A DNA stretch of 64,000 nucleotides. Origin: Candidatus Sumerlaeia bacterium. Its GTDB lineage: Bacteria; Sumerlaeota; Sumerlaeia; JADFCW01. Position 1 is the first letter of the stretch. Every line of letters begins with the position of its first letter. Made by a program: the position numbers and the translations under genes. The DNA lies in NCBI GenBank assembly GCA_026415575.1, contig JAOAGV010000008.1, positions 1-64,000 on the forward strand, written 5' to 3'. The notes beneath the pieces were generated by a model that was not told the DNA's origin, searched no databases, and was given only the letters and a program-made list of their open reading frames with translations. Below are positions 2,014-61,085 of the stretch, in pieces.

Positions 2014-2079
2014 GTGGAGGATCGGGTTCCACCCCGACCGGATTTGGATATCGTGGAGGGTCGGGTTTCACCCCGACCG
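2014..2079 (+). repeat. Two tandem copies of short hairpin repeat
   Basis: gtggaggatcgggttccaccccgaccg (2014-2040) and gtggagggtcgggtttcaccccgaccg (2053-2079). Confidence 0.85.
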
Positions 2080-4211: not shown

Positions 4212-4612
4212 GGTTTCTCCTTCCAAGTGTCTTTGCAGTTCCTAGTGGTCTGTCGGCCCAAAGCGTCACCGCCGTTGTGAAAAGGTTTTGCGGCTTGGAC
4301 ATACACTAAAAATCACCCGGTACGACAGTGACGGGGTTTGCGAGGTTTTCCCAGTTGTGAGCGCCACGTAAGGTTTTCACGGGCCAGCGTATGGCGCGAT
4401 ATGTGTGAGGCGATATGTCCCCACGGGCTGGCTTTCTCCAGCCCAAGGGCCACGAGGCTATGAGATGCGCCTGTGGCCTCGCGGGGGCGGTCCCAAAACG
4501 ACACAATCGCCGGGCGATGCCCACTGGCCGCGCCAGCGCCAGTAATGGTAAAACAACGAAGGGTAAAACGAATAACACATTGATAAACATGCGCGTTCCT
4601 TTCACACGGCTA

Positions 4613-4962
4613 CTTCTCCTGAAATCGGGAGAAGGTTCCGTGAGCGCAAGCAAGACTGCCGCCTGATGCCAGAAAAATCCCGCCTACACATCGCCAAAAT
4701 CTTTGGAGTGCCGGCAGCCATGCTGCCGCTTTGCCGAAATTGTCCCCCGTCAGGCAAAGCGTTGGCGTCGTAGCAAAAACCCACGCTGGGGAGGGTTGGG
4801 TTGGGCACAAAAAGAAAGCGGGAGCATGGCTCCCGCAGTCCAAAGTGTCCGCTGATTTGTGGATAATCACAAAAGCTCAGCCTCAGGTCTTTTCCCGTTC
4901 GCTCTTTCAGCCCCATAAGGCCACAGCATGATCAAGCGGCCCTCTCCCGATTTCGGGAGAAG
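4613..4962. repeat. ~350-bp intergenic element, copy A, with palindromic terminal inverted repeats
   Basis: Left end CTTCTCCTGAAATCGGGAGAAG, right end CTCTCCCGATTTCGGGAGAAG (inverted). Internal blocks shared in order with 21367-21717. Confidence 0.8.
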
Positions 4963-5046
4963 CTCACTTTTCACACCTATGCGCTTCTGTTTCTTTGGAA
5001 AGAGAAGTGCTAACTGATAGGTCGATCAGGGTTGGGGACTCGGACG

Positions 5047-5073
5047 CGGTCGGGGTGGAACCCGACCCTCCAT
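5047..5073 (-). repeat. Short hairpin repeat (GTGGAGGGTCGGGTTCCACCCCGACCG family), single inverted copy
   Basis: cggtcggggtggaacccgaccctccat is the reverse complement of the unit at 2053. Confidence 0.8.
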
Positions 5074-7661: not shown

Positions 7662-7762
7662 GTGGAGGGTTGGGTTCCACCCCAACCGGAATACGTTTTG
7701 GAGGGTCGGGTTCCACCGCAACCGGAAAACCTCGTGGAGGGTTGGGTTCCCCCCCCGACCGG
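7662..7762. repeat. Three tandem copies of short hairpin repeat in the nuoL-nuoM spacer
   Basis: gtggagggttgggttccaccccaaccgg / tttggagggtcgggttccaccgcaaccgg / gtggagggttgggttccccccccgaccgg, 36-bp period. Confidence 0.85.
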
Positions 7763-21155: not shown

Positions 21156-21366
21156 CCCTCACCTCCGCACATCTCCATGCAAACCGGCCGAAAAAGCCTT
21201 GCACGCAGTTCTGTCAGACAGTTGCGAATACGGATCAAAAATTCTGAGATTAGGGGCTTTCCCTCCCAAGGGAATCCCTTTGCGTTTCTGCCCGCGCCGC
21301 GCAAAAGCCTGCTTGGAACGACCGGCAAGGTGCAAGCCAAAAGTTGCAACCCCCGCCAACTGGGCG

Positions 21367-21717
21367 CTTCTCCCGAAATCGGGAGATGCTTCCCGCGAGC
21401 GCAAGCAAGACGGCCTCCAGATGCCGAAAAAATCCCCCAAGGGCTTTGGGGTGCAGGCAGCCATGCTGCCGCTTTGTTGAAAGCATCGCTTGTCAGACAA
21501 AGCGTTGTCGCTGTGGGGGAAACCCACGCTTGGCGGGTTTGAGTGTGGTAAAAGAAAAAGCGGCAGCGTGGCTGCCGCAGTCCAAAGCGTCCGCCCAAAG
21601 CGGACGCCGATTTGTGTGTAATGATAAGGGCGCTTTCTCAGGCCATTTCGTTTTCGCCCTTCCAGCCCCAAACAGGCCAAAGCCTGATCGAACGACCTTC
21701 TCCGGATTTCGGGAGAA
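21367..21717. repeat. ~350-bp intergenic element, copy B, with palindromic terminal inverted repeats
   Basis: Left CTTCTCCCGAAATCGGGAGA, right CTTCTCCGGATTTCGGGAGAAT; internal hairpins AAACCCACGCTTGGCGGGTTT, TTGTCAGACAA, GCGGCAGCGTGGCTGCCGC. Confidence 0.85.
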
Positions 21718-21862
21718 TCTCCCGCACAAAACGGCGCGATAGATTTTGCTTGATCTTGGCCGCCCGGCACGTTTCCCTCATTTACCGCCGTGCAGCACCT
21801 CAGGCGCAACCGCGGCGGTCGCAGACTCGGCAAACAAATCTTGTCCTCGCGGGGGTAACTCC

Positions 21863-60869: not shown

Positions 60870-60897
60870 TAGCCTGTCCATCCTGCCTCCGTGCACG

Positions 60898-61053
60898 TCC
60901 AAGCGGCTGAAATCGTCCCTTGTCAGACAAAGCGTCGGCGTTATGGAAAGGACCCACGTTTGGCGGGTTTGATCTTGTCACAAAAGAAAACGGCAGCATG
61001 GCTGCCGCAGTCCATAGGTTTGGCTAAACCCATACTCCCCATTTCAGGAGAAG
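60898..61053. repeat. Truncated copy C of the ~350-bp intergenic element
   Basis: CCTTGTCAGACAAAGCGTCG...ACCCACGTTTGGCGGGTTTGA...ACGGCAGCATGGCTGCCGCAGTCC...CTCCCCATTTCAGGAGAAG (right end retained). Confidence 0.8.
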
Positions 61054-61085
61054 ATCCCACGTCCAAGCCGCGGGCAGAAAAAGGA

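Follow-up and report, generated by a model that had tools for sequence, protein, structure and literature searches.

A probable ISKra4-type MITE family with a RAYT-type REPIN between its arms in a Candidatus Sumerlaeia genome

Copies of the element in the window

The stretch analysed here, called the window throughout, comprises positions 1 to 64,000 of contig JAOAGV010000008.1 from a Candidatus Sumerlaeia bacterium and contains two whole copies (A and B) and one truncated copy (C) of a short repeat (Table 1). Copy A lies between a Mg-chelatase-like gene and an Mrr_N gene, and copy B between nuoA and a Peptidase_S55-like gene. Pfam supports the flanking genes on both sides and no coding evidence was found inside either copy, so that both are strictly intergenic and free of a convincing ORF, as an earlier note made from the sequence alone had stated. 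The palindromic inverted ends of about 20 bp that it described for A and B are present at the positions it gave; the limits it set for the elements (4613–4962 and 21367–21717) are correctly placed but slightly too narrow, by TIR and target duplication.

Copy C consists of spacer s1, REP2, and the right end; the left arm and REP1 are missing, as is the greater part of the right arm. Although its left end is missing, identical direct repeats (CGTCCAAGC) flank it exactly, so its truncation may be older than its insertion.

Table 1. Coordinates of the three copies and their parts in the window
Feature	Position	Strand	Remarks
Left target-site duplication of copy A	4599..4607	.	CTTTCACAC; 8/9 versus right flank TTTTCACAC
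Copy A, whole ISKra4-type MITE	4608..4967	+	360 bp; profile match 339 bits, TIRs, target duplication
Left TIR of copy A	4608..4632	+	includes palindrome TCTCCTGAAATCGGGAGA; consensus GGGTGCATCTCCCGAAATCGGGAGA
Left arm of copy A	4633..4704	+	
REP1 of copy A	4705..4729	+	tag GGAGTGC and stem-loop
REPIN spacer s1 of copy A	4730..4817	+	
REP2 of copy A	4818..4841	-	inverted, tag outward; two-sided stem change versus consensus (GCGGGAGC/GCTCCCGC)
Right arm of copy A	4842..4942	+	
Right TIR of copy A	4943..4967	-	
Right target-site duplication of copy A	4968..4976	.	TTTTCACAC
Copy B, whole MITE	about 21362..21723	+	362 bp
REP1 of copy B	21448..21472	+	
REP2 of copy B	21560..21583	-	followed by short local duplication
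Left direct repeat of copy C	60896..60904	.	CGTCCAAGC, read from sequence
Copy C, truncated MITE	about 60905..61059	+	spacer match E 7e-23
Right direct repeat of copy C	61060..61068	.	CGTCCAAGC

A second tagged palindrome, GGAGGGTCGGGTTCCACCCCGACCG, occurs five times in a 6-kb part of the window (2016–2040, 2055–2079, 5047–5071 on the minus strand, 7664–7688, and 7700–7724), once only 80 bp from copy A. Its hairpin is also found inside 134-bp elements of a congener that have the same TIR as the repeat described here.

The source genome (G000) is a 4.67-Mb draft in 255 contigs and belongs to the same genus as Candidatus Sumerlaeota DG2.163 (the congener, G001); both assemblies are 93–94% complete, and the comparison set includes Candidatus Sumerlaeota (BRC1) genomes. 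The genome-wide search for further copies that the earlier note had suggested recovered about 75 right and 66 left arms in the source genome, using sequence-only models of the two arms; these counts are lower bounds, with several copies at contig ends. The same models found no arms in the congener, only short partial matches. A BLAST-type search with copies A and B returned at least 40 copies per query at 71–84% identity. The copy counts rest on model and pattern searches, and neither the TIR palindrome (88 matches in the source genome) nor the REP core (238 matches) is a product of chance, as the reversed controls gave 0 matches in each case. In being short (about 360 bp), non-coding, and dispersed as 66–75 arms in one genome, the repeat agrees with a MITE.

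Ends, target duplications, and a candidate partner transposase

Aligning the copies extended the terminal palindrome outward to a TIR of 25 bp (consensus GGGTGCATCTCCCGAAATCGGGAGA), which is itself a perfect palindrome. Target duplications of 9 bp, another feature that the earlier note had proposed to look for, are present in decayed form: the summed match in 27 full copies is 158, versus a maximum of 133 in flank-pairing permutations, of which 0 of 20,000 scored as well. A clear signal extends to nine or ten bases and weakens further out; in several copies, including B (4/9), a duplication is not recognisable. Three solo 32-bp palindromes (L223, L228, and L264) resemble two fused TIRs with the interior lost; their flanks lack a convincing 9-bp duplication.

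Ends in GGG together with 9-bp duplications point to the ISKra4 (Mutator-like DDE) family, and this family was therefore tested. One locus of the source genome (L245, contig C136) contains a 331-residue ORF whose best model is NF033572 (ISKra4) at 104.6 bits; this is below the curated cut-off of 205 bits, and the ORF is cut by the contig end. Upstream of this ORF, at 77–101, lies the MITE TIR (24/25), followed by non-MITE sequence. Only the left TIR is assembled, not the right end or the complete gene; by our estimate, a stray MITE end would fall within 1.3 kb by chance at a few percent of places. The source genome also holds a small ISKra4 fragment at another site, and no complete autonomous IS is assembled in it. 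Reading TIR-only sites for an enclosed transposase gave none at the four loci with ORFs listed (L314, L315, L320, and L321).

ISKra4 loci of other Sumerlaeota end in GGG[CT]GCATCT (one of them, L352, with only one intact end), and one in a relative (L354) has a 9/9 duplication, GGAAGGCGG; elements of the ISKra4 group make repeats of 8–9 bp (PMC3942029). Both the ends and the duplication length of the MITE thus agree with ISKra4 elements. Like ISKra4-family (p-MULT 4, Mutator-like DDE) insertion sequences and DDE-derived MITEs, it has 9-bp target duplications, no genes, and a high copy number, and its TIR starts with the same GGG[CT]GCATCT as the phylum's ISKra4 elements. It differs from them in that its TIR is a perfect palindrome and its cargo a REPIN. 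On the basis of a non-exhaustive literature search, we know of no other ISKra4 MITE with a palindromic TIR and REPIN cargo.

The earlier note's suggestion of a non-autonomous mobile element is supported by the many copies, the defined TIRs, the 9-bp duplications, and, in the same genome, an ORF for an ISKra4-type transposase with a matching TIR; the element was most likely mobilised in trans by an ISKra4 transposase. The palindromic TIRs could also suggest that the 350-bp unit as a whole belongs to the RAYT/TIRYT type, its ends being the repeats that a Y1 tyrosine transposase recognises, without any DDE enzyme; families of self-complementary TIR repeats around TIRYT genes have been reported (PMC3733652). 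We consider this very unlikely: HUH single-strand transposition would not be expected to leave 9-bp target duplications, so that the duplication statistics count strongly against it, the TIR ends match those of ISKra4 elements, and the Y1/RAYT-like genes examined in the source genome and its congener have other repeats at their sides or are without the MITE TIR. None of the loci of this kind examined in the source genome has the REP of the MITE close by.

Two such genes were rejected as partners. The IS200-like gene of the source genome (PF01797 search) is flanked by other repeats, and the RAYT-like gene of the congener adjoins GTAG-type repeats, which belong to a different REP system. At L196 (contig C392 of the congener), GTAG-type hairpins (GTAGTTCAAACTTCAGTTTGC and variants) flank this RAYT-like gene at 1200–1400 and 2070–2149. 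At L092 (contig C178 of the source genome), an IS200-like transposase gene lies amid many copies of a short repeat (CCTGAAAGGGGC / CCCAGGGCAACGCCCTGGG).

The REPIN between the arms

The interior of the copies, whose nature the earlier note had overlooked, is a RAYT-type REPIN of about 133–138 bp: a GGANTGC-tagged hairpin (stem of about 8–9 bp after the tag), a spacer of about 85 bp, and a second, inverted hairpin. This unit occurs at high copy number and is also found outside the MITE. The REP core has 278 matches in the congener and few in other families, with single exact matches in one Hydrogenedentota and one Verrucomicrobia genome among the matches listed.

Related REPs are linked to RAYT genes in relatives of the source genome. 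In HGW-BRC1-1 (G014), a RAYT-like gene has the identical REP core on both sides, and in four further genomes (G010, G032, G003, and G026) RAYT genes carry GGA[CG]TGC-tagged hairpins on one or both sides, in which the tag is kept and the stems differ by compensating changes. One RAYT-like protein (P0001) scores 77.3 bits with the NCBIfam model REP_Tyr_transpos, just under the cut-off of 80, and matches PDB 4er8 (TnpA_REP). A cognate RAYT was not found in the source genome or the congener, where only distant RAYT-like proteins without this REP at their sides occur (the closest in the source genome is 31% identical over 118 residues, 25 bits); for this reason we only infer that the REPIN has moved in the source genome.

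As in the REPINs or REP doublets of Bertels and Rainey (2011, PMC3116915) and the RAYT-REP systems of Nunvar (2010, PMC2817692), two inverted hairpins with outward tags enclose a spacer and are better conserved than it, and related REPs with compensating stem changes flank RAYT genes. Unlike in these systems, the tag is GGANTGC rather than GTAG/GTGG, the unit is about 133–138 bp long, many copies lie inside a DDE-type MITE, and the cognate RAYT is absent from the assembly. The GTAG-15 and CGTC-1 REP dimers (Di Nocera 2013, PMC3733652) likewise occur regularly within a larger repeated palindrome, although the passage on them does not present these surroundings as a transposon with target duplications, whereas here the surrounding unit is one.

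Mean pairwise column identity is 0.93 for each REP, 0.80–0.84 for the TIR palindromes, and about 0.75–0.77 for the arms and spacer, and the two best-conserved 30-column windows of the MITE are the two REPs. This contrast, and the intergenic position of the copies in the window, would suit a domesticated regulatory or RNA family (a terminator, attenuator, or sRNA) that is kept for its function and is not mobile, in line with the structured regulatory repeat that the earlier note had offered as its other option. Rfam, however, gave nothing relevant at gathering or relaxed thresholds, the arms are decayed, truncation and rearrangement are frequent among the copies, target duplications are present, and stem covariation among the copies within the source genome is not significant. 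We thus hold a regulatory family to be highly improbable; our statements on structure rest on the comparison between genomes, since the covariation within the source genome is not significant.

Most MITE copies contain the REPIN in one orientation. In three copies it is inverted (L255, L262, and L329, at 85–87% to the reversed spacer), and in L254 it is both inverted and exchanged for that of a second repeat family of the source genome. This second family has other conserved flanks, and its REPIN agrees with that of the MITE in its termini and approximately in length and has a spacer that is partly related. The REPIN is absent from three copies (L269, L325, and L331), where the junctions lie at most a few bases from its boundaries and differ slightly from one another; these empty copies may be deletions. 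L258 has a single REP, and several other copies have extra REPs. At L282–L301 of the source genome, a second composite repeat family has the same REP pair and another spacer, and its conserved flanks bear GTGGCCAAAGGCCACGTTAG palindromes.

Within the MITE reading, all of these variants might have arisen by ordinary recombination or slippage between REPs, with no RAYT action after capture. The missing cognate RAYT in both genomes, the tandem REP duplications, and the fact that inverted REPs permit flipping by recombination make this a distinct possibility, though not one that we favour. It accounts less readily for the precise placement of this REP pair, its spacer partly related, in a second, unrelated repeat family, for loss junctions at most a few bases away from the edges of the REPIN, and for the conservation of the REPs alone.

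Same-TIR elements in other lineages and significance

The same TIR encloses other hairpins in two further genomes. In the congener, the same-TIR elements are 134 bp long and contain hairpins of the form GGAGGGTCGGGTTC.ACCCCGAC, and in G009 two same-TIR MITEs of 373 and 401 bp contain REP-like hairpins of the GGCTTCAGCC type and have target duplications of 9/9 and 8/9, respectively. Because one TIR thus encloses different REP-like pairs in three Sumerlaeota lineages, we tentatively raise the idea, which we hold to be rather doubtful, that ISKra4-type MITEs sharing a conserved palindromic TIR are repeated carriers of RAYT-type REP hairpins, an HUH-dependent element hitch-hiking on a DDE-dependent one and being exchanged within it as a cassette.

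The repeat is a new family of ISKra4-type MITE with a RAYT-type REPIN, in which the parts are known and the nesting is unusual. The best explanation, to which we assign a probability of about 0.82, is an ISKra4-mobilised MITE that carries a captured RAYT-type REPIN as cargo. According to this two-part model, a gene-less transposon with 25-bp inverted ends would owe its cut-and-paste movement to a transposase of the ISKra4 family (Mutator-like DDE), which would act in trans and make 9-bp target duplications. The cargo of this transposon, two inverted RAYT-type REP hairpins and a spacer of about 85 bp, would already have been carried by the ancestor of the family, so that MITE and REPIN would have spread jointly by ISKra4 transposition. 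Later, single copies would have lost their REPIN or had it flipped, replaced, or multiplied on the spot; either the REPIN's own RAYT chemistry on single strands or recombination among the REPs would have been responsible.

DDE MITEs and RAYT-dependent REPINs, two classes of miniature bacterial repeats that are usually dealt with separately, come together in this family. The RAYT-REP set, with its conserved tag and covarying stems, extends REPtrons into Sumerlaeota. If the REPIN is true second-level mobile cargo, REPINs would have a route to spread and persist in a lineage that has lost their own transposase, and the empty, inverted, exchanged, and expanded copies would be natural replicates for the study of REPIN loss and turnover.
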